From JADFSZ01 sp022560555 [NCBI: PVC group bacterium] (GTDB lineage Bacteria; GCA-001730085; JADFSZ01), in NCBI GenBank assembly GCA_022560555.1, contig JADFSZ010000024.1, forward strand, positions 1-13,349: a stretch of 13,349 bases of DNA, given 5' to 3'. Of the stretch, positions 1,641 through 12,365 are shown piece after piece. How positions within the stretch are numbered: the first letter of the stretch is position 1; the number at the start of each line of letters is the position of its first letter. Both the position numbers and the translations under genes were made by a program. A model generated the notes under the pieces. That model had not been told where the DNA came from. It searched no databases and was given only the letters and a program-made list of their open reading frames with translations.

Positions 1641-2420
1641 ATGCAAAAAATCTATGAAACTAGTGATTTCTATTTCGTGGCCTTTCTTCATTCCAAAGGA
1701 GTGAGTGATGACGATATTTTGGAGCAATACACACCCTTTGGACACAGCGATTACCAAACCATTGTTGCCAATATTAAGAAATTTGCCGCAAAGAAGCAGA
1801 CAGCGGTTATTTCAACCATCAATGGGGATTCCAATGTTCCCTTTTATAAGGAACTTGCGAACCAAGGAATCAAAGCAGAAGATATTCCCGTTATTGCTTT
1901 TTCCGTTGGAGAGGAAGAATTGCGCGGTGTGGACACCTCTTCCCTCGTAGGACATTTAGCTGCGTGGAATTACTTTATGTCCATTGAAACTCCTGAGAAC
2001 AAAAAGTTTATAGCTAAATGGAAGGACTATGTGAAAAAACATAATCTTCCCGGAGGAGAAAAAAGAGTGACCAATGACCCGATGGAAGCAACGTATATCG
2101 GTATGCACATGTGGGCCCAGGCGGTCGAACAGGCAAGAACGACTAATATCGATGCTGTCCGTCAAGCCCTTGGGCATCAGACCTTTCGAGCCCCGTCAGG
2201 CTATACCATTACCATGGATGCTAAGAATCATCATTTGCATAAACCGGTAATCATTGCGGAAATTAGAGCAGACGGCCAGTTTGATATTGTTTGGGAAACA
2301 GAGGGACCGATTCGGGCTGAGGCTTGGAGTCCTTATCTTCCTGACAGTGCAAAAAAAGTTGCTGATTGGACTTATCCATGGGTAAGCGGTAATGGAACGG
2401 AACCAAGGTTTTCAGATTAA
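1641..2420 (+). pseudogene. urtA: urtA remnant: C-terminal part of the urea-binding protein
   Basis: UrtA is the periplasmic receptor of the urea ABC transporter UrtABCDE. This frame gives 259 residues from an ATG at 1641, whereas family members usually have about 400-450. Family likeness starts near residue 14 (AFLHSKGV) and runs through YTPFGHSDYQTIV, ISTINGDSNVPFYKEL, FSVGEEELRG, GHLAAWNYFMS, RVTNDPMEATYIG and HHLHKPVIIAEI. The 3' end is therefore intact, including the second lobe of the type 1 periplasmic-binding fold. The signal peptide and first lobe are absent. An in-frame TAA at 1635-1637 precedes the ATG and there is no convincing ribosome binding site, so residues 1-13 are probably junction sequence. 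Even if translated, the fragment would stay in the cytoplasm and could not form the two-lobed urea site. Alternatives are a split gene whose first half lies to the left, or an assembly error. It is first in line for urtBCDE. Confidence 0.88.
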
Positions 2421-2480: not shown

Positions 2481-2574
2481 CACCTACCCATCCTGGAAAA
2501 AAATCATTCCTCTGAAAAATTCCTCTGGATGTAGGTACGATGTTTACGTTAAAATGAGACTTTTAAGGGATGAT

Positions 2575-4218
2575 ATGTACTTCCAAAGGAAAAATAGAAT
2601 AGGAATTATTCTCTGCGGTATTTTTGTCTTTTCGATCCTGATTGTATCCAGGGCATGGGGAAACGAATTAGACGAAGTTATTGGGCATCTCGGTTCTAAA
2701 AAAATAAAAGAAATCAAACAAGCTATTCAAGACATAGCACGAATGGATCAACCCCAAGTCCTGCCAACCCTCTTCGCTCTCAAGGATCGTCATCTCAGAG
2801 TCGATGAACAAGGACAGCTCTTTATCCTCAGTGATGATGAAACCACTCTGATTAATGCCATTACGAAGGAAAAAGTATCCGCAGAGGATCGGCAGCTTCG
2901 TATCCCCCGTATCAACAATTCTGTGAGACGTCTTTTATCTCCTGTTATAGCGCAATTGCAGCTTCAATCCGATGATCCCTCTATCCGCTTGGAAGCGGCC
3001 AAAGAATTAAGCAGGAAGGGAAAACTCACTGAAGATGCCGTTCTAGCGATACGTGTGGGTATCCATAAAGAACAAAATCGTAAGATTAAAAATATATTAC
3101 ATTTGGCATTAGCAAGAATCGACCTTGCCTCCGGAGATATGGATCAACGTATTCGTGCGATCGAACGGATCGGGGAGGCCGGGAACCTTCAATTTAAAAG
3201 TGTTCTTGAAAAGATACTGATTCAAAACGAAGATGCCTCCTATCCGGAGCCCGAAGAACGTATCCGGCAGGCGGCCAAGAAGGCCATCGCGGCCATAAAT
3301 CTCAAGCAGACCATCGTAACCCAGGCCGGAAACTTGTTTTATGGATTAAGTTTAGGAAGCGTTTTGCTCCTCACAGCTCTGGGACTGGCCATTACGTTTG
3401 GACTCATGGGGGTAATCAATATGGCCCATGGCGAAATGCTGATGTTGGGCGCGTATTCAACATATGTGATTCAAAACATTTTTAACACGTATCTTCCAAA
3501 TTATTTTGATTGGTATCCTTTGTTTGCTATCCCGGTTGCTTTTTTTGTAACGGCTATTGTCGGTATAATTTTAGAGCGAACCGTCATTCGGCATCTTTAT
3601 ACTCGCCCCTTGGAAACATTGCTTGCCACATGGGGTGTTAGCCTCATCATCATACAAACTGTGCGTCTCATTTTTGGCGCACAAAATGTTGAAGTGGCCA
3701 ATCCGAATTGGTTGTCCGGTGGTATAGAAGTGATGCCGGGCCTTGTTTTAACTTACAACCGCATCGCCATTATTATTTTTGCCGTGCTTGTTGTTTTTCT
3801 CGTTTGGTATATTTTGCAAAGGACGCGTTTGGGATTACAGGTGCGTGCTGTGACCCAGAATCGTTCTATGGCTGCGAGTATGGGGATTTCAACAGCAAAA
3901 ATCGATATGTGGGCCTTTGGTCTGGGAAGCGGGGTTGCGGGATTAGGCGGCGTTGCTTTATCGCAGCTTACCAACGTGGGACCGGAGTTAGGGCAGTTGT
4001 ATATTATTGATTCGTTTATGGTTGTTGTCCTGGGTGGTGTTGGCAAAATCATCGGGACTGTTGTTGGGGCCCTTGGTTTAGGAATTGCTAATAAATTTTT
4101 AGAACCTGTGTCCGGGGCTGTCCTGGGTAAAATTTTTATTTTAATTTTTATCATTTTATTCATTCAAAAATTTCCACAGGGTATATTTTCTCTGAAAGGA
4201 AGAGACGTTGAAAATTAA
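2575..4218 (+). CDS. urtB: UrtB, urea ABC transporter permease subunit
   Basis: UrtB forms half of the inner-membrane urea channel. I prefer the ATG at 2575 because AAGGGA at 2565-2570 sits four bases before it and the product then starts with a clean signal peptide (MYFQRKNRIG, then a hydrophobic run, cleavage probably after SRAWG). An in-frame ATG at 2554 would add seven residues but lacks a ribosome binding site. Numbered from 2554, residues 37-255 are a soluble, helical, HEAT-like region, the periplasmic extension usual in UrtB and absent from LivH. From about 260 onward lies the multi-span branched-chain-type permease (BPD_transp_2 family), with GLAITFGLMGVINMAHGE at 277-294 and GGVGKIIGTVVGA further on. 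The length of 547-554 residues is normal. The stop lies inside urtC (11-base overlap), pointing to coupled translation. The gene appears intact even though urtA is broken. Confidence 0.95.
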   Translation: MYFQRKNRIGIILCGIFVFSILIVSRAWGNELDEVIGHLGSKKIKEIKQAIQDIARMDQPQVLPTLFALKDRHLRVDEQGQLFILSDDETTLINAITKEKVSAEDRQLRIPRINNSVRRLLSPVIAQLQLQSDDPSIRLEAAKELSRKGKLTEDAVLAIRVGIHKEQNRKIKNILHLALARIDLASGDMDQRIRAIERIGEAGNLQFKSVLEKILIQNEDASYPEPEERIRQAAKKAIAAINLKQTIVTQAGNLFYGLSLGSVLLLTALGLAITFGLMGVINMAHGEMLMLGAYSTYVIQNIFNTYLPNYFDWYPLFAIPVAFFVTAIVGIILERTVIRHLYTRPLETLLATWGVSLIIIQTVRLIFGAQNVEVANPNWLSGGIEVMPGLVLTYNRIAIIIFAVLVVFLVWYILQRTRLGLQVRAVTQNRSMAASMGISTAKIDMWAFGLGSGVAGLGGVALSQLTNVGPELGQLYIIDSFMVVVLGGVGKIIGTVVGALGLGIANKFLEPVSGAVLGKIFILIFIILFIQKFPQGIFSLKGRDVEN

Positions 4219-5335
4219 CCGGCTTGATTATATGAAACAACGTATTCATGAGATGCATACGCCCAAAGGATGGGGTCTTATGGGATTGATGGGGAGTATC
4301 ATGATCATCGCTGTTCCTCTTTTGAATATCTTGCCATCGTCGGAATCTTTTTTTTATATTCCGGATTATTTGGTTACGTTATTTGGTAAGATCCTTTGCT
4401 ATGCTCTTGTGGCGCTTGCCTTAGATTTAGTGTGGGGATATACGGGTATATTGAGTTTGGGGCATGGCCTTTTCTTTGCCTTGGGCGGGTATGCGATGGG
4501 AATGCATTTGATGCGGAATATCGGAACCGAAGGGGTTTACAAAAGCGCACTTCCTGATTTTATGGTCTTTTTGGATTGGAAGGAACTTCCCTGGTATTGG
4601 CATGGATTTGACAAATTCCCTTTTGCGATGCTCATGGTGATTCTGGTCCCGGGTGTTCTGGCTTGGGTGTTCGGTTTTTTTGCTTTTCGCTCACGTATCA
4701 AGGGCGTTTACTTTGCGATTGTTACCCAGGCCTTGACCTTTGCGGCTATGCTCCTTTTCTTTCGGAACAATACCGGATTTGGCGGAAATAATGGCTTGAC
4801 CGACTTTAAACGTATCCTTGGGTTTTCACTGCAAGACCCTTCGACAAAGCTCGGCCTGTATGTTCTCACAGGACTTGTTCTTATAATCTTTTATATTTTT
4901 GCACGCTTTATTGTGACGAGTAAGTTGGGGCGGATCATCAGGGCCATCCGTGATGCTGAAAACAGGGTTATCTTTTCCGGTTATGATGCCTTTAAATTTA
5001 AACTCTTCATCTGGACTTTATCGGCCGTGGTGTGCGGTATTGCCGGAGCCCTTTATGTTCCGCAAGTCGGGATCATCAATCCCAGTGAGATGCAGCCATC
5101 CAACTCGATTGAAATCGTGATTTGGGTCGCGATTGGCGGACGAGGAACCCTCTTGGGGCCTATCCTGGGAGCGATTGTTGTCAACGGAGCCAAAAGCTGG
5201 TTTACTGTGGCTTATCCGGAATTTTGGCTGTATTTTTTAGGGGGGCTGTTTGTTCTTGTCACGGTATTTTTACCTCGGGGGCTCATCGGAATTTTGTCAC
5301 AAAAAAACAAGGAGCCTCTCCGTGGCCGCACTTAA
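4208..5335 (+). CDS. urtC: UrtC, urea ABC transporter permease subunit
   Basis: UrtC is the second membrane subunit and pairs with UrtB. The start is a TTG at 4208 with AAAGGAAG directly upstream at 4196-4203. It overlaps the end of urtB by 11 bases, so ribosomes may reinitiate there. The 375-residue product starts MKINRLDYMKQ, has a short cytoplasmic head, and then a series of hydrophobic segments. DLVWGYTGILSLGHG at residues 73-87 is the LivM/UrtC signature; GNNGLTDF and AIGGRGTLLGPILGA are also typical. An insertion between the second and third membrane segments (about residues 100-140, rich in Trp and Tyr) is normal for UrtC and longer than in LivM. The length is in the usual range and I see no damage. 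The last 14 bases overlap urtD. Confidence 0.95.
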   Translation: MKINRLDYMKQRIHEMHTPKGWGLMGLMGSIMIIAVPLLNILPSSESFFYIPDYLVTLFGKILCYALVALALDLVWGYTGILSLGHGLFFALGGYAMGMHLMRNIGTEGVYKSALPDFMVFLDWKELPWYWHGFDKFPFAMLMVILVPGVLAWVFGFFAFRSRIKGVYFAIVTQALTFAAMLLFFRNNTGFGGNNGLTDFKRILGFSLQDPSTKLGLYVLTGLVLIIFYIFARFIVTSKLGRIIRAIRDAENRVIFSGYDAFKFKLFIWTLSAVVCGIAGALYVPQVGIINPSEMQPSNSIEIVIWVAIGGRGTLLGPILGAIVVNGAKSWFTVAYPEFWLYFLGGLFVLVTVFLPRGLIGILSQKNKEPLRGRT

Positions 5336-6161
5336 TTACATTCGTAATATCCTTCGTCGAGACCGCGTTTTTGAATTTATGATACCGAAACCGGTCAAGA
5401 ATCCAAAGCTTCGTATCGGACAGGGATGCCTTTTATATGTCGAAGGAGTCACGGTGAGTTTTGATGGATTCAAAGCACTCGATGATTTGAATCTCTATAT
5501 CGATGACGGAGAGCTGCGATGTATTATCGGCCCGAATGGTGCCGGGAAAACCACTCTGATGGATGTGATTACCGGAAAGACGTTGCCCGAAGAAGGAAGC
5601 GTTCTTTTTGGTCAGAACATCGATCTGCTAAAGATGAAAGAACAGGAGATTGTCGAGGCCGGCATCGGACGGAAATTTCAGAGACCAACAGTATTTCAGG
5701 AACTCACCGTTATGGAGAATCTGGAGCTGGCGATGCATACCGACAAAAAAGTATGGCATAGCCTTTTCACTTATTTGTCCGAAAAACAATTGGAGCGAAT
5801 CGAAGAAATCCTGGAGTTTCTGGCGCTTCAAGATCACCGACATCAAACCGCGGGCTTGTTGAGTCACGGGCAAAAACAATGGCTCGAAATCGGGATGCTT
5901 TTGATGCAGAATCCGAAACTTCTTTTTCTCGATGAACCGGTTGCGGGTATGACGCCGCATGAAATCGAACGGACTGGGGAGTTGTTATCTTCAATGGTCC
6001 CGGAACATACGGTGGTTGTAATCGACCATGATATGGATTTTATCCGGTCCATTGCCAAAAGAGTTACGGTTCTCCATGAGGGACATGTTTTGGCCGAAGG
6101 CAGTATGAAAGATATACAAAGCAATCCTCAAGTGATTGAAGTGTACTTGGGAGAGGAATGA
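5322..6161 (+). CDS. urtD: UrtD, urea ABC transporter ATP-binding protein
   Basis: UrtD is one of the two ATPases that power urea uptake from the cytoplasmic face. I place the start at GTG 5322 because AAGGAG at 5309-5314 lies seven bases before it. The frame is open further upstream, but only as a shadow of urtC. The product has 279 residues. A 40-residue head precedes the ATPase domain, as is common in UrtD. Walker A is GPNGAGKTT (70-78), Q-loop Gln 120, signature LSHGQ (180-184), Walker B LLFLDEP (200-206) and switch His 236 in VIDHDMDF. LSHGQKQWLEIG in place of the usual LSGGQ is typical of UrtD and separates it from LivG. The gene overlaps urtC by 14 bases and urtE by four. All catalytic residues are present. 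Confidence 0.96.
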   Translation: MAALNYIRNILRRDRVFEFMIPKPVKNPKLRIGQGCLLYVEGVTVSFDGFKALDDLNLYIDDGELRCIIGPNGAGKTTLMDVITGKTLPEEGSVLFGQNIDLLKMKEQEIVEAGIGRKFQRPTVFQELTVMENLELAMHTDKKVWHSLFTYLSEKQLERIEEILEFLALQDHRHQTAGLLSHGQKQWLEIGMLLMQNPKLLFLDEPVAGMTPHEIERTGELLSSMVPEHTVVVIDHDMDFIRSIAKRVTVLHEGHVLAEGSMKDIQSNPQVIEVYLGEE

Positions 6162-6856
6162 TGCTTGAAATTGCGAATCTGAACCAGTATTATGGCGAAA
6201 GTCATACCTTGTGGGATATCCATTTAAATCTTCCCAAAGGTGTTTGTACCTGTCTTATGGGACGAAACGGAGCCGGAAAGACGACATTATTGAAATCTCT
6301 CATGGGACTTCACCCCATCAAAACAGGGCAGGTGAATTTTGATGGGACGGATATCACTCATATTCCTACCTATCGTAAAGTTCGTTTAGGTATTGGCTAT
6401 GTGCCGCAAGGCAGAGAAATCTTTTCACAGCTTACCGTAGAAGAAAACCTGCGTTTGGGGCTAACGGTGCAAAACCAGTGGCATAAAGAGATTCCTGATA
6501 AGATCTATGACCTTTTTCCTGACCTCAAAAAAATGTTAAATCGCCGTGGCGGGAATCTTTCCGGAGGGCAGCAGCAGCAGTTGTCGATTGCGCGTGCGCT
6601 TGTGGCCAATCCAAAATTTTTAATCCTTGACGAACCAACTGAAGGGATTCAGCCGAATATTGTTCATCAAATCGGGGAGGTCATTGAATATTTGTGTAAG
6701 AAAGCGGAAATGACGATTCTTTTGGTTGAGCAAAAACTGGCGTTTGCCCGTCGGACAGCGCAGCATTTTTGCATCATGGATAAAGGATATATGGTTGCTG
6801 CAGACAGAATAGATGCTTTAGATGATCAACTGATTCAAAAACATCTCAGAGTATAG
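6158..6856 (+). CDS. urtE: UrtE, urea ABC transporter ATP-binding protein
   Basis: UrtE is the second ATPase and forms a heterodimer with UrtD. The ATG at 6158 overlaps the urtD stop in an ATGA junction, with GAGAGGA just upstream; a second ATG follows directly at 6161. The 232-residue product is a standard LivF/UrtE-type ATPase: Walker A GRNGAGKT (35-42), YVPQGREIFSQLTVEENL around the Q-loop (81-98), signature LSGGQ (134-138) and Walker B FLILDEP (154-160). The H-loop position reads LLVEQKLAFA, the family's usual sequence, without the standard switch histidine. TEGIQPNIV after Walker B is also characteristic. The TAG stop at 6854-6856 lies inside the first unit of a tandem repeat that fills the gap to the next gene. 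It appears intact. Confidence 0.96.
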   Translation: MMLEIANLNQYYGESHTLWDIHLNLPKGVCTCLMGRNGAGKTTLLKSLMGLHPIKTGQVNFDGTDITHIPTYRKVRLGIGYVPQGREIFSQLTVEENLRLGLTVQNQWHKEIPDKIYDLFPDLKKMLNRRGGNLSGGQQQQLSIARALVANPKFLILDEPTEGIQPNIVHQIGEVIEYLCKKAEMTILLVEQKLAFARRTAQHFCIMDKGYMVAADRIDALDDQLIQKHLRV

Positions 6857-6906
6857 TTAAAAAAGATAGTTAAAAAGAAAAGTTAAAAAGAAGAGTTAAA
6901 AAGAAA
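6855..6906 (+). repeat. Four tandem 13-bp units between urtE and the histidine-rich gene
   Basis: The units start at 6855, 6868, 6881 and 6894. Each reads AGTTAAAAAGAAA or differs at up to three bases (the last reads AGTTAAAAAGAAA followed by GG). The first unit overlaps the urtE stop, and the last runs into the AAAGGAG ribosome binding site of the next gene. Every unit contains TTAA and 13 is not a multiple of three, so the array puts TAA stops in all three frames. Such arrays change copy number by slippage and could alter spacing or mRNA structure here. No function is shown. Confidence 0.85.
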
Positions 6907-6919
6907 GGAGCGAAACCGT

Positions 6920-7312
6920 ATGAAGCGGATATTTTTGTTTGTTGTCATCCTGTTGACAGGAATCTTATTGTGTTTGCCCAGACCATCTTTTGCCCATGGT
7001 CTTCACTTTCATTCTTTAGAAGACATGGCCGCGCATATTGAAGGGCATCTTTTAGAGCTGGAAATCCTTGTAGCATCCAAGAGGGATCATCAGGAAGAGA
7101 TTTTTGAAAAAAGCCTGGAAATCCATCGCCATGCCTTAGATTATCATAGATATGTCAGGCATTTACAAAATAGTTCACCTCGACACGCTGGTTTCAACGC
7201 CCTGGTGATGGGAGCTGAACAGTTAATCAAAAAGTCGGAACAAAACGATGTCTTTCAGATGATCTTTGTCATGAATGACATGTTAGAAATTATCCCGCTG
7301 AATCCGGCGTAG
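6920..7312 (+). CDS. Small exported histidine-rich protein, family not recognised
   Basis: This gene has a good ribosome binding site (AAAGGAG at 6904-6910, nine bases before the ATG). The 130-residue product opens with a clear Sec signal peptide: MKR, a hydrophobic core, and PSFA before a likely cut at residue 25. Cys 18 lacks a proper lipobox, so a soluble periplasmic protein is likelier than a lipoprotein. All 11 histidines lie in the mature part (26, 29, 31, 39, 43, 57, 69, 71, 76, 81, 89). The mature N-terminus would be HGLHFH, and EIHRHALDYHRYVRH puts four more on what looks like one or two helices. The remainder is predicted helical, with hydrophobic positions suiting a small bundle. 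I do not recognise the family. Its place between the urea transporter and urease genes, plus the histidines, suggests periplasmic nickel binding or delivery. That is inference; copper, zinc or a structural role are possible. Confidence 0.85.
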   Translation: MKRIFLFVVILLTGILLCLPRPSFAHGLHFHSLEDMAAHIEGHLLELEILVASKRDHQEEIFEKSLEIHRHALDYHRYVRHLQNSSPRHAGFNALVMGAEQLIKKSEQNDVFQMIFVMNDMLEIIPLNPA

Positions 7313-7324
7313 GAAAATGGAATT

Positions 7325-8302
7325 ATGTCCGTAACAGCTCTCATAAAAAAAAGAAGACATCGAACGCAAGATCATATGCGCATCGATCAAACAGATTCTC
7401 ATTACCCATATGATATTTGTCCTAATGAGAATTTATGGAGCCGCATTCAAGTGGCTCCTGTCCAAGGGGTATCCCTGTTAAACACGTGTCAAAGCATTAA
7501 TCCTCTTAAGATTTTCAATCCTCATGACGGAGGCACAACCTGTCATGTGGTTTTATCGAGTTATGGGGGAGGGTTTGTGACAGGGGATCAGATCTATTTT
7601 CAAGTTGTGTGTCAGCCGGATTCGAAATTATTTCTCGGGACTCAAGCCGAAACAAAAGTGTATAAATCTGTTTATGATCAGACATCATCTCAGACGATTG
7701 TGGGTTCATTGGGAAAGAATGCGTTGGCTGTGATAGCCCCGGATGCCTTGATCCCTTATGCGGGGAGCCGTTTTGTTCAAAAACAAATATGGACGTTAGA
7801 AACAACCTCATGTTTGATTCTCATTGATTGGATTCATTCAGGACGTTCCGCTTTAGGGGAAGATTTCCAATATGATTTATTGCGTTCAGATATTGAGATC
7901 TTTGTGGATGGGGAAAAAGTGATTTTGGATCGATTGAAGATTCAGCCGGGATATTCGTCACCTTTTGCTCCGGGGGCGTACGGAGAGTATACGAGTTGCT
8001 TTAATATGTATCTTGTAGGGGACGCGTGCGCGCCTTTAATTCAAAAGATCAATAATGTGATCAAGAAGGGCGGAGCGATCCCAGGATATAATGAACAAAA
8101 ATTTTGTCTTCCAAATGATAATGCTCGAGAAGAATATTTCAAAGGAATATGGTTGGGGCTCAATCGCATGAACGACACATGTTATGTGCTACGTTTGCTC
8201 GCCAGAGAAAAACAGGATATCGAACCCTTGTTAAAAATCTTTTTTGCTGAGTTGGCTTCAAAAAAATTATTGGGATTTAATCCTTTAACAAGAAAACTTT
8301 GA
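7325..8302 (+). CDS. ureD: UreD (UreH), urease accessory protein
   Basis: UreD binds apo-urease and, with UreF and UreG, forms the activation complex that carries nickel into the active site. The 325-residue product shows the family pattern: YGGGFVTGDQ (80-89), GTQAETKVYKS (105-115), PDALIPYAGSRF (139-150) and HSGRSALGE (171-179). The N-terminus is about 30 residues longer than the conserved core and rich in basic residues and histidine (KKRRHRTQDH). A start at the in-frame ATG at 7376 would remove much of this tail, and neither start has a strong ribosome binding site, so the exact N-terminus is open. The gene follows the histidine-rich protein after only 12 bases, which implies one transcript. 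Placing ureD ahead of the structural genes matches many bacterial urease operons. Confidence 0.92.
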   Translation: MSVTALIKKRRHRTQDHMRIDQTDSHYPYDICPNENLWSRIQVAPVQGVSLLNTCQSINPLKIFNPHDGGTTCHVVLSSYGGGFVTGDQIYFQVVCQPDSKLFLGTQAETKVYKSVYDQTSSQTIVGSLGKNALAVIAPDALIPYAGSRFVQKQIWTLETTSCLILIDWIHSGRSALGEDFQYDLLRSDIEIFVDGEKVILDRLKIQPGYSSPFAPGAYGEYTSCFNMYLVGDACAPLIQKINNVIKKGGAIPGYNEQKFCLPNDNAREEYFKGIWLGLNRMNDTCYVLRLLAREKQDIEPLLKIFFAELASKKLLGFNPLTRKL

Positions 8303-8351: not shown

Positions 8352-9110
8352 ATGAGATTGTCGCCGAAAGAAATTGAAAAACTGATGCTCCATAATGCGG
8401 GGTTTGTTGCCCAAAAGAGATTGTGGCGCGGCCTCAAACTCAATTATCCCGAGGCCATAGCTTTGATAGCTACGCAGATTCTTGAGCTGATACGGGAAGG
8501 GAAGACGGTGTCCGCACTGATGGATCAAGGGAAGCGCATCTTGGGCACCGTTCATGTTCAGCCTGAAGTCCCGTCTCTGATCCATGAAGTTCAGGTAGAA
8601 GGAACATTTCCGGATGGTGTTAAGCTTGTTACTATTCATGATCCGATCTGCACCGAAGAGGGAGATTTGGCATTAGCTCTCTATGGGTCGGGGCTGTCTT
8701 TGGAGAGTGCGACAGTGCAACGGCATGATGCCGATGCCCGGAAAGGACCCCGAATTATCCCGGGAGAATTGATCCTTCAAAAAGAAGAATTAGTATTGAA
8801 TGAAGGCAGGGACATTCGTGTTGTGAACGTCATCAATAAGGGGGATCGCCCTATTCAGGTTGGATCGCATTATCCCTTTTTTGAGGTTAATCCGAGCTTA
8901 GTCTTTGAACGGGAATCAGCCTATGGATACCGCTTGAATATTCCTTCGGGAACAGCGATTCGCTTTGAACCAGGAGCTAAGAAAGATGTCGAACTCATTC
9001 CTATTGCAGGAGAAAAAATCATTTATGGCGGGAATGCCTGGATCTCCGGAAAATTGTCTGAGGAAAACAAAAAAACGGCATTGGAACGATTTAGAGACAT
9101 AGAAAATTAA
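8352..9110 (+). CDS. ureAB: Fused urease gamma-beta subunit (UreA-UreB)
   Basis: This single frame joins the two small urease subunits, which are separate genes in Klebsiella and fused in Helicobacter. Residues 1-99 are Ure[34 protein letters not shown] and [17 protein letters not shown]. Residues 136-252 are Ure[37 protein letters not shown] and GTAIRFEPG. Between them, residues 100-135 form a linker ([20 protein letters not shown] and on to KGPR) clearly longer than the short Helicobacter join as I recall it. At residue 175 the widely conserved GSHYHF reads GSHYPF, a His-to-Pro change. The C-terminus is shorter than in Helicobacter. The product packs against UreC in the urease assembly and does not hold the nickel site. 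GGAAGGGA lies just before the ATG. The 49-base gap after ureD holds nothing else I recognise. Confidence 0.95.
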
Positions 9111-9156
9111 AAATGAGTTGTATGATAATCAAGGTTTTAATAGAAAGGAGATTTTT

Positions 9157-10878
9157 ATGAGTTATCGGATTGATCGAAGGGCGTATGCGGATATGTATGG
9201 TCCGACAACAGGCGATAAAGTCCGATTAGGCGATACGGATCTCATCGTCGAAGTGGAAAAGGACATGACAGTCTATGGGGAAGAATGCAAATTTGGCGGC
9301 GGTAAAGTTTTACGGGACGGCATGGGACAAGCGGCAGGTGTCCTACAGAAGGATGCCCTCGATTTACTGATCACGAACGCTTTGATCTTGGACTATACAG
9401 GAATTTATAAAGCCGATGTAGGTATCAAAAATGGACGCATCATAGGCATTGGTAAAGCCGGAAACCCGGCTATCATGCCCAACGTGAATAAGGATATGAT
9501 TTTTGGTGTGACAACAGAAGTTGTGGCCGGGGAAGGATTGATTTTAACGGCAGGAGGTATTGATGCGCATATTCATTTTATTTGTCCCCAACAAATCGAT
9601 GAAGCACTAGCATCCGGCATCACAACCATGTTGGGAGGAGGCACAGGACCGGCAACAGGAACCAATGCCACGACGTGTACACCCGGTGCTTATCATATTG
9701 AGATGATGATGCGTGCAACAGATGCTTATCCCTTAAATTTTGGATTCTTGGGGAAAGGGAATTCCTCTTTGCCTCAAGGATTAGAGGAGCAGATCCATGG
9801 CGGGGCGATCGGACTCAAACTCCATGAAGATTGGGGAACAACACCGGCTGCCATTGACAGTTGCTTGTCAATAGCAGATAAATTTGATGTGCAAGTCGCA
9901 ATCCATACTGATACGTTGAATGAGTCAGGTTTTGTCGAAAGAACGATAGCCGCTTTTAAAGGGCGAACGATTCATACATTTCATTCCGAGGGAGCCGGAG
10001 GAGGACATGCTCCGGATATTCTCAAAGTCTGCGGCCAAAGAAATGTTTTGCCTTCTTCAACGAATCCGACACGACCTTTTACCGCTAATACCATTGATGA
10101 ACATTTGGATATGCTGATGGTTTGTCACCATTTGGATAAAAATATTCCGGAAGATGTGGCCTTTGCAGAAAGCCGCATTCGCGCGGAAACGATTGCCGCG
10201 GAAGACATACTTCATGATATGGGCGCGATCTCCATAATAGCTTCGGATTCTCAGGCCATGGGCCGTGTGGGCGAGGTGATTTGCCGGACATGGCAAACAG
10301 CTCATAAAATGAAAGTTCAACGGGGCCAACTTCCGGAAGATAAAAAGACCGTCTCCGGTAGTGATAATTTCCGGGTGAAACGTTATATCGCAAAATATAC
10401 AATCAATCCGGCTATTGCACATGGATTTGCCAATGAGGTTGGATCTGTCGAGATTGGAAAATGGGCCGATTTTGTTTTGTGGAAACCTTGTTTCTTTGGT
10501 TCAAAACCTGAAATGGTGATCAAAGGCGGCATTATTGTACAGGCACAGATGGGAGATCCCAATGCATCCATACCCACCACGCAACCCTATTTTTCCAGAC
10601 CCATGTTCGGGGCTATGGGATCGGCTATCGGTGCGAATTCATTTGCGTTAGTTTCAGCAGTCTCCCAAGAGCATGTCAAAAATCATTATGGACTATCCAA
10701 AAGAATAGTCCCCATTAAAAATTGTCGAAAAATCAGCAAAGACGACATGAAGCTTAATAATTATTTGCCGAATATTGAGGTGGATCCCGAAAGCTATCAG
10801 GTCAAAGTGAATGGAGAGATAATAACCTGTGAGCCGGCAAGCCAATTGCCTTTAGCGCAGCTTTATTCTTTATTCTAG
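9157..10878 (+). CDS. ureC: UreC, urease alpha (catalytic) subunit
   Basis: UreC holds the dinickel centre that hydrolyses urea to ammonia and carbamate in the cytoplasm. The ATG at 9157 follows a textbook AAAGGAG and gives [20 protein letters not shown], the normal N-terminus, at 573 residues (family about 567-572). The frame is open upstream to 9118 but that part has no family likeness. All nickel and catalytic residues are present, offset by four from Klebsiella numbering: His 138 and His 140 (DAHIHF), the carbamylated Lys 221 (GLKLHEDWG), His 250 (VAIHTDT), His 276 ([14 protein letters not shown]), Asp 364 ([12 protein letters not shown]), and flap residues Cys 323 and His 324 (MVCHHLD). 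I see no missing key residue, so the enzyme should be active once nickel is loaded. It is the most strongly conserved gene in the window. Confidence 0.98.
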
Positions 10879-10895: not shown

Positions 10896-11579
10896 TTGAC
10901 TAAGCAATATCTTTATTTATTCCAATTAGCTGATTCGGCATGGCCCACAGGAGGGTTTGCCCTCTCTAATGGTTTTGAAGCCTTGATGAAGCTGGGACAT
11001 CTGAAAGATACTCATGTCTTTGTAGAATATCTAGAATCTTATCTCCGGCAAATTAGTGAAGCTGATCTTGCTTTTATGAACTCGATTTATATGTTAAATG
11101 AAGAGGATTATAGTTATCGCTTTCATGAAATCTGGATGGACTGGCATGCGTTTCAACATATCGAAGCCATGCGCAACGCCAATGCCCTTTTGGGCGAAAA
11201 CTGGTTTCGCATGATCCGCTCTGTTTACTCTCCTCGAAACATTGATGAGATGAAAAACTTTTTCGATGAGAAAAATCGCCCCATGTATTTTACCATTGTT
11301 TTTCCAAGGCTTCTCAGGATGATCAGGGTCGAGTTATTAGTCATGCACAAGCTGTTTTATCATATGGCCGTTCGAGATCAAACCGGTGCTGCCATACGAT
11401 TAGGTGTTATCGGCCCTGAAATGGCACAAAGGATCCATTTTCGCTTGATTGATACCTGCGAAAAATTGCGTGTGCAATACAAAGATCGAACATATGAGGA
11501 GGCGTGCCGTTCCCATCCACTGCTGGAATTGGCGCAAAGTTCTCATCAATATCTATATTCACGCATTTTTCAGAACTAG
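10896..11579 (+). CDS. ureF: UreF, urease accessory protein
   Basis: UreF works with UreD and recruits UreG during nickel insertion, controlling the fidelity of activation. The 227-residue, mostly helical product has the family signature LADSAWPTGGFALSNGFEA (11-29) and ends in HQYLYSRIFQN, close to the usual UreF terminus. I accept the TTG at 10896 because AAGGAAGG at 10879-10886 lies nine bases upstream and the family motif begins only ten codons in. An ATG at 10889 in another frame opens a four-codon reading frame that overlaps this TTG and could compete for the same ribosome binding site. The gap after ureC is 17 bases. Length is normal. Sequence drift from better-known UreF proteins is noticeable in the middle, as is common in this fast-evolving family. 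Confidence 0.93.
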   Translation: MTKQYLYLFQLADSAWPTGGFALSNGFEALMKLGHLKDTHVFVEYLESYLRQISEADLAFMNSIYMLNEEDYSYRFHEIWMDWHAFQHIEAMRNANALLGENWFRMIRSVYSPRNIDEMKNFFDEKNRPMYFTIVFPRLLRMIRVELLVMHKLFYHMAVRDQTGAAIRLGVIGPEMAQRIHFRLIDTCEKLRVQYKDRTYEEACRSHPLLELAQSSHQYLYSRIFQN

Positions 11580-11597: not shown

Positions 11598-12365
11598 ATG
11601 TCTCAAAAAAACCATATCCAAAAAAAACATCTCCATTTAGACGCTCATAAACATGACCATGAGCACCACCATACCCATGAAAAATGGGAAAGCCCCGGCA
11701 TATACAGATGGAAAGATCTTTCTGATCATCCGCGTGATTTTTCCAAGAGAGCGTTTACGATAGGAATTGGCGGCCCCGTGGGCTCGGGGAAAACAGCATT
11801 ATTGAAATCTTTATGTGAATGTTTTCGAAACCGATATCAGCTTGGTGTTGTTACGAATGATATATTTACGCGAGAAGACGCAGAGTTTTTGATTAAACAT
11901 AAAGTGCTTGAACCTGACCGCATTATTGGAGTTGAGACGGGGGGATGTCCCCATGCGGCGATTCGTGAAGATATATCATCTAATTTGTCAGCCCTCACAG
12001 AACTGATGAAACGCTTTTCTTGCAATCTTGATTTGCTTTTTGTTGAGAGCGGAGGGGATAATCTGGCCGCTCATTTCAGCAAAGAGCTTGTTGATTATAC
12101 GATTTATGTCATTGATGTTTCCGGAGGGGATAAGATCCCTCGAAAAGGAGGGCCCGGAATTACACAGGCGGATTTATTGGTCATTAATAAAATTGATTTG
12201 GCAGATATTGTTGGAGCGGATTTAAAAATTATGAAAAGAGATTCAATCATAATGCGCGGGGAAGGTCCCTTTATCTTTTCTAATGCGAGAGAAGGGCATG
12301 GTGTGCCCCAAATCGCACAGGCTGTTGAGAAAGCTATGAAACAAGCCAAAGCTACAATACTATGA
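11598..12365 (+). CDS. ureG: UreG, nickel-delivering GTPase with a histidine-rich N-terminal tail
   Basis: UreG is the SIMIBI-class GTPase that carries nickel to the UreD-UreF-urease complex. The 255-residue product is longer than common bacterial UreG (about 200-210) because of an N-terminal tail. Residues 1-29 contain ten histidines (6, 11, 13, 17, 19, 21, 23-25, 27). The core is canonical: P-loop GGPVGSGKT (58-66), ETGGCPH (113-119) with the Cys-Pro-His metal site, [10 protein letters not shown] (149-158) and NKID (197-200) for guanine recognition. The start has AGAGGA at 11585-11590 just upstream, and the gap after ureF is 18 bases. No ureE is present in the window, so the tail may store or hand over nickel in its place; histidine-rich UreG tails are known in plants and some bacteria. 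It is the last clear gene of the cluster. Confidence 0.96.

Follow-up and report, generated by a model that had tools for sequence, protein, structure and literature searches.

A probably exported, histidine-rich candidate metal-binding protein encoded between the urea-uptake and urease genes of a single bacterial genome

The window, by which we mean the whole stretch of DNA analysed (13,349 nucleotides), is an entire contig (C182) of a 1.66-Mb genome that is assembled in 222 contigs and is 91.5% complete. It carries on its forward strand a urea-uptake and urease cluster in the order urtA (3′ part)–urtB–urtC–urtD–urtE–orphan–ureD–ureAB–ureC–ureF–ureG, where ‘orphan’ denotes the small gene with which we are concerned here. 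The features are collected in Table 1.

Table 1. Genes and sequence features of the urea-uptake and urease cluster.
Feature	Position	Strand	Basis or remark
urtA, 3′ part only (profile positions 154–361)	1641–2420	+	family profile
urtB	2554–4218	+	TIGR03409
urtC	4208–5335	+	TIGR03408
urtD	5376–6161	+	TIGR03411
urtE	6158–6856	+	TIGR03410
13-bp tandem repeat, 4.1 copies	6853–6905	+	between urtE and orphan gene
Shine–Dalgarno-like AAAGGAG	6904–6910	+	read from sequence; 9 nt 5′ of ATG
Orphan gene, 130-residue probably exported His-rich protein	6920–7312	+	ORF listing, codon usage
Putative signal peptide, residues 1–25, presumed cut between SFA and HGLHFH	6920–6994	+	read from sequence
Presumed mature protein, 105 residues, predicted all-helical (four helices), low confidence	6995–7309	+	AlphaFold2 without alignment
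ureD	7325–8302	+	PF01774
ureAB, fused urease gamma/beta subunit	8352–9110	+	PF00547 + PF00699, NF009671
ureC	9160–10878	+	PF00449, PF01979; upstream TTG start at 9118 also in ORF listing
ureF	10896–11579	+	PF01730
ureG with His-rich N-terminal tail	11598–12365	+	TIGR00101

The cluster appears to belong to its genome. Contamination was considered and rejected on the grounds that both the GC content of the cluster (43.6%, compared with 40–46% in 16 unmasked sampled contigs) and its tetranucleotide correlation (0.53, compared with 0.40–0.78 in the unmasked sampled contigs) match those of the rest, four masked contigs being excluded in each case; nine other loci, mostly of different GC content, gave correlations of −0.05 to 0.29, below that of the cluster. 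The start of the contig is another matter. The urtA frame (1438–2420) lacks the first ~153 profile positions and a signal peptide, and it is the sole Peripla_BP_5 match in the genome. Either truncation of urtA or a chimeric join in the contig at ~1640, where the GC content shifts from ~33% to 43%, would account for this, and it is doubtful that the first 1.5 kb (33% GC) forms part of the same genome. An Rfam match to the 5′ ureB sRNA family lies antisense to ureC (9309–9604, − strand); the same family also matches all five of the other urease loci tested, so that the match is most likely conserved coding sequence and not a proven RNA.

By codon usage, the orphan frame of 393 nt is a coding gene, and it has a good ribosome-binding site. 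Its codon score in frame 1 is 0.10, like those of the ten neighbouring urt and ure genes (0.10–0.21); the other two forward frames score −0.59 and −0.30, and those of the opposite strand −0.30 to −0.39. That the stretch does not encode a protein might be argued from the lack of a homologue in any collection searched, but the in-frame codon usage, the ribosome-binding site and the operon-like spacing make this very improbable. The gene ends 12 nt before ureD and shares the direction of the cluster, as the preliminary description had stated, and this tight spacing and common direction suggest that it is co-expressed with ureD. Between positions 6600 and 7700, promoter-like sites number three, against 2.6 expected by shuffling, and there is one terminator-like site against 0.8 expected; since both are at chance level, nothing contradicts a single transcript. 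The 13-bp repeat overlaps both the stop codon of urtE and the orphan gene’s ribosome-binding site.

The N-terminus of the encoded protein, MKRIFLFVVILLTGILLCLPRPSFA followed by HGLHFH, reads by eye as a Sec signal ending in a site for signal peptidase I: it has a KR pair, a hydrophobic stretch at residues 4–19 that is the only one in the protein, and S-F-A before the first histidine. On this reading, we infer that the protein is probably exported and that cleavage would leave a mature form beginning HGLHFH, as had been proposed. All 11 histidines do lie in the mature part, as also claimed, and more narrowly in residues 26–89; there are none in the signal peptide and none in the last 41 residues. 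At the histidine rate of 2.4% in the sampled genome, the binomial probability of at least 11 in 105 residues is ~5e-5. In a sample of 122 ORFs of at least 100 residues (from 20 of the 222 contigs, of which three were fully and one was partially masked), no ORF has 11 histidines in any 105-residue window and six reach ten; the histidine content is therefore unusual but not extreme. Some of the six look non-coding.

The AlphaFold2 models, made from the single sequence, are of low confidence, with a mean pLDDT of 64.6 for the whole protein and 65.7 for the mature part. They place a helix at residues 2–18 in the signal region and four helices in the mature part, the last two of which (90–108 and 111–124) contain no histidine. 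It had been suggested that several histidines lie on one helix face. In the low-confidence model this does not hold: the four histidines of the long predicted helix (58–85) diverge in direction (resultant 0.13, P 0.93), and the addition of H57 changes little (resultant 0.14, P 0.90). H39 and H43, on the first helix, show an unremarkable i,i+4 spacing (P 0.20). A Foldseek search with the orphan model found nothing at E ≤0.001. VIA-align returned generic helical bundles with Z scores of 8.8–11.3, amongst them designed di-metal proteins (one of which has the best score, 11.3) and a hemerythrin-like domain; all lie below the Z of ~13 under which matches between helical bundles may reflect no more than a common arrangement.

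As judged from sequence comparison, the orphan protein is without recognised family or relatives in the collections searched. Pfam, searched up to E 10 within the filters of HMMER, gave only tRNA-synt_2 (E 0.023–0.034, below the cut-off); NCBIfam, PHROGs and PADLOC gave no match of weight; PDB sequences up to E 10 gave only a ribosomal protein and FwdD; and tblastn at E 1 detected no relative in plasmids and phages. Exact eight-residue patterns, which reach close relatives only, found none in genome contigs and viral contigs. One other genome of the same phylum (G001) matches neither the orphan protein nor the urease alpha family. Amongst 145 genomes (its own included), 27 others matched at E ≤1, the best (E 0.01) being a frame with three stops. 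With the mature part as query against 386 genomes (again including its own), ten matched at E ≤0.05, namely its own and nine others, and the best of these nine (E 0.006) is likewise a frame with three stops. Eight of the nine (L164–L171; the ninth is L004) were inspected and set aside as chance matches to broken, low-complexity or unrelated-looking frames. The most alike, L165, has an HGLHF stretch in the middle of a 210-residue frame with no hydrophobic N-terminus and was also judged to be chance. A phmmer comparison with 17,383 frames from 160 of 162 loci, the two with the window’s own cluster being excluded, gave as best amongst the matches listed a 66-residue frame (E 0.008), and none was convincing. 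The search for homologues, which took in 385 further genomes, has thus produced no convincing relative.

The closest urease cluster found, L132, is in a genome of another phylum (G140), the only one of 68 genomes of that phylum with a UreD match; its UreC is 81%, its UreAB 64% and its UreD 38% identical to those of the window. It has the order urtD–urtE–ureD–ureAB–ureC–ureF–ureG, as in the window but without the orphan gene, and its urtE–ureD frame gap is 24 nt. Of 90 loci compared (80 named and 10 others), 22, L132 included, have urtE and ureD on one strand with urtE no more than 3 kb upstream, and no recognisable copy of the orphan gene was seen in any of the 22. The urtE–ureD frame gap is ≤266 nt in 20 of the 22, as against 460 in the window; in the other two (L088 and L091) gaps of 2.0–2.4 kb are filled by larger, different frames. 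Forward-strand frames in the gaps of 21 loci have up to ten histidines, and none of those listed (up to 12 frames per locus) has a hydrophobic N-terminal stretch (best 12-residue mean 1.6). An ORF scan for exported histidine-rich proteins in the 80 named loci yielded mostly antisense or unlikely frames, and we found no report in the open-licence literature of an exported histidine-rich protein between urt and ure genes. Since no recognisable copy was seen at comparable loci or in other genomes, the gene was probably either acquired by this lineage or retained in it alone. The preliminary description had raised the possibility of a new element of urease operons. As a general element this is not supported, given its absence from L132 and the lack of a recognisable copy in the 22 urtE–ureD loci (L132 amongst them) and in 385 other genomes.

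These comparisons bear on two explanations that have nothing to do with nickel. The first is that the protein, whether rapidly evolving or of new origin, is exported but has no metal function and entered the operon recently, its histidines being moderately numerous by chance. The lack of relatives wherever they were sought, the nearest cluster without the gene, the six sampled ORFs that reach ten histidines and the scatter of the long-helix histidines all agree with this; we nevertheless consider it doubtful in view of the probability calculated above for 11 histidines in 105 residues, a number reached by none of the 122 ORFs, and of their confinement to the part before residue 90. The second explanation is an exported binder of zinc or copper, or a general metal-stress protein, that lies in the urease cluster by happenstance and is unrelated to nickel or urease. 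Locus L064 (Vreelandella lutescens) has between urtE and ureD a different histidine-rich exported protein (4894–5445, + strand), which by eye resembles a copper chaperone. Small exported metal binders can moreover serve several metals, as PMC7137794 indicates for SmbP with Ni, Cu, Zn and Fe. The tight spacing before ureD and the shared direction, which suggest co-expression, point away from happenstance, and this explanation too seems to us unlikely on balance.

Urease needs nickel, and the nickel context of the cluster is therefore of interest. In the genome as it stands (with ~8% missing), no match to the Pfam families NicO, HupE/UreJ, UreE_N or CbiM was found at E 0.001, in a search that, as a control, matched these families in five, one, two and three of 14 known genomes, respectively. 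The earlier statement that neither a nickel permease nor UreE is present here holds for the ten window proteins covered by each of the Pfam and NCBIfam scans and, genome-wide, for these four families; NikABCDE and NikK-type systems lie outside them. The window’s UreG has a tail (11598–11750) with nine histidines in 45 residues before the P-loop, and the UreG of L132 has six. By eye, an extended region before the P-loop is present in ten of 71 UreGs collected by a motif search that missed those of Hymenobacter (L052, L056, L058–L062, L132, L133 and the window), and seven of the ten have at least six histidines there; a UreG-like frame in L123 has six histidines without the extended region. The clusters with an extended UreG have a fused ureAB wherever this can be read (L052 ends at the contig end). 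Given a UreG with its own histidine tail, the missing UreE does not by itself demand a new chaperone. G140 also lacks UreE_N and has a HupE/UreJ match, and most Nitrospira genomes are without ureE, which, PMC10753782 suggests, may lower urease activity. Absence of UreE is thus not peculiar to this genome and is not by itself a pointer to the orphan protein.

Amongst the known proteins closest in character is SmbP, which has a histidine-rich composition with a repeated histidine pattern and folds as a four-helix bundle. The orphan protein is also small and histidine-rich (11 in 105 residues), with export judged by eye; it differs in that no Pfam, NCBIfam or PDB match of weight was obtained and in that the histidine repeat of SmbP is not evident. 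Four helices are predicted for it at a mean pLDDT of ~65, with generic bundle matches only. PMC7137794 describes SmbP as periplasmic and as a binder of Ni(II), Cu(II), Zn(II) and Fe(III), and its accessible part mentions no link with urease. One could suppose that the orphan protein is a known small metal-binding or sensor protein, of the SmbP, CnrX/CpxP or hemerythrin type, that has diverged beyond recognition by sequence. The all-helical prediction and the helical bundles found by VIA-align would suit such an origin. Nonetheless it is improbable, because Pfam, NCBIfam, PHROGs and PDB sequences gave no match of weight, Foldseek gave none at E 0.001, the Z scores fall below ~13 and the last 41 residues hold no histidine. 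For sensors of the CnrX/CpxP type in particular, there was no Pfam match up to E 10 within HMMER’s filters, although a fold of that type is still conceivable. Hemerythrin draws its ligand histidines from both its first and its later helices; a hemerythrin-like identity was rejected for the orphan protein, which has no histidine after residue 89 of 130 and none in its last two helices. SmbP, CnrX and hemerythrin were thus considered and not adopted, and absence from the VIA-align matches or a low rank amongst them proves nothing.

Other nickel proteins resemble the orphan protein in fewer respects. UreE and UreG are cytoplasmic. UreE and the histidine-rich tail of UreG share with it the encoding of a histidine-rich protein in a urease cluster, whereas the orphan protein, for which there was no UreE_N match, is probably exported. 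HupE/UreJ, NicO and NikK/NikL are nickel-uptake proteins of organisms bearing urease and hydrogenase; HupE/UreJ and NicO are multi-span permeases, and the orphan protein has a single N-terminal hydrophobic stretch and no family match. Two small histidine-rich nickel-binding proteins of gastric Helicobacter were, according to PMC4671568, acquired in one urease-bearing lineage. NikK and NikL orphans without NikMQO have also been noted (PMC2667541), and the exporter RcnA has a histidine-rich loop (PMC11247825). The Helicobacter pair, Hpn and Hpn-2, are cytosolic and have far more histidines than the orphan protein, which is probably exported and with which no shared family was found.

We tentatively prefer the possibility that the orphan protein is a lineage-specific, exported, histidine-rich metal-binding candidate with an extracytoplasmic nickel role linked, in whatever form, to urease. 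Its narrower version, in which the protein founds a new family of dedicated extracytoplasmic nickel buffers or acceptors encoded alongside urease where UreE and the common nickel permeases are lacking, is unlikely. Metal binding, nickel as the metal and hand-over to urease are all speculative; since urease depends on nickel, that metal is the obvious one to suggest, and zinc, copper or no metal at all are also possible. In the scheme envisaged, the Sec system would export the protein and signal peptidase I would cut it at SFA/H, to give an N-terminal histidine with further histidines at positions 4 and 6. These N-terminal histidines, together with those of the first two helices, might then bind or buffer nickel close to the membrane, on the outer side of the inner membrane, from where some importer would take it into the cell, and UreG (with its own histidine tail) together with UreD and UreF would insert it into urease.

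In favour of the nickel role we count a coding gene 12 nt before ureD, the histidine content, the missing UreE_N, NicO, HupE/UreJ and CbiM matches, the all-helical prediction and the precedent of SmbP. Against it we count the lack of homologues, and with it of any histidine conservation or co-occurrence with urease; the L132 gene order without the orphan gene; the unaligned histidines of the long helix; the low-confidence models; and the truncated gene for the urea-binding protein. The histidine tail of UreG, moreover, could do part of the job of UreE. As no relatives were found, it is composition and position, at present in one genome, that favour a nickel role. The original observation was mostly real, and is confirmed in part. 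How nickel is delivered to urease in bacteria where UreE and the usual permeases are missing is an unsettled matter, and an exported nickel protein from a urease operon would, if the preferred reading is correct, be a direct lead to the missing uptake route.

Amongst the urease loci compared, the ureAB and ureC matches are ~0.5–2.1 kb apart in four from Hymenobacter (L053, L054, L055 and L057) and ≤50 bases apart in L056 and L058–L062. The gap in L054 contains further short ureC- and ureAB-like stretches.
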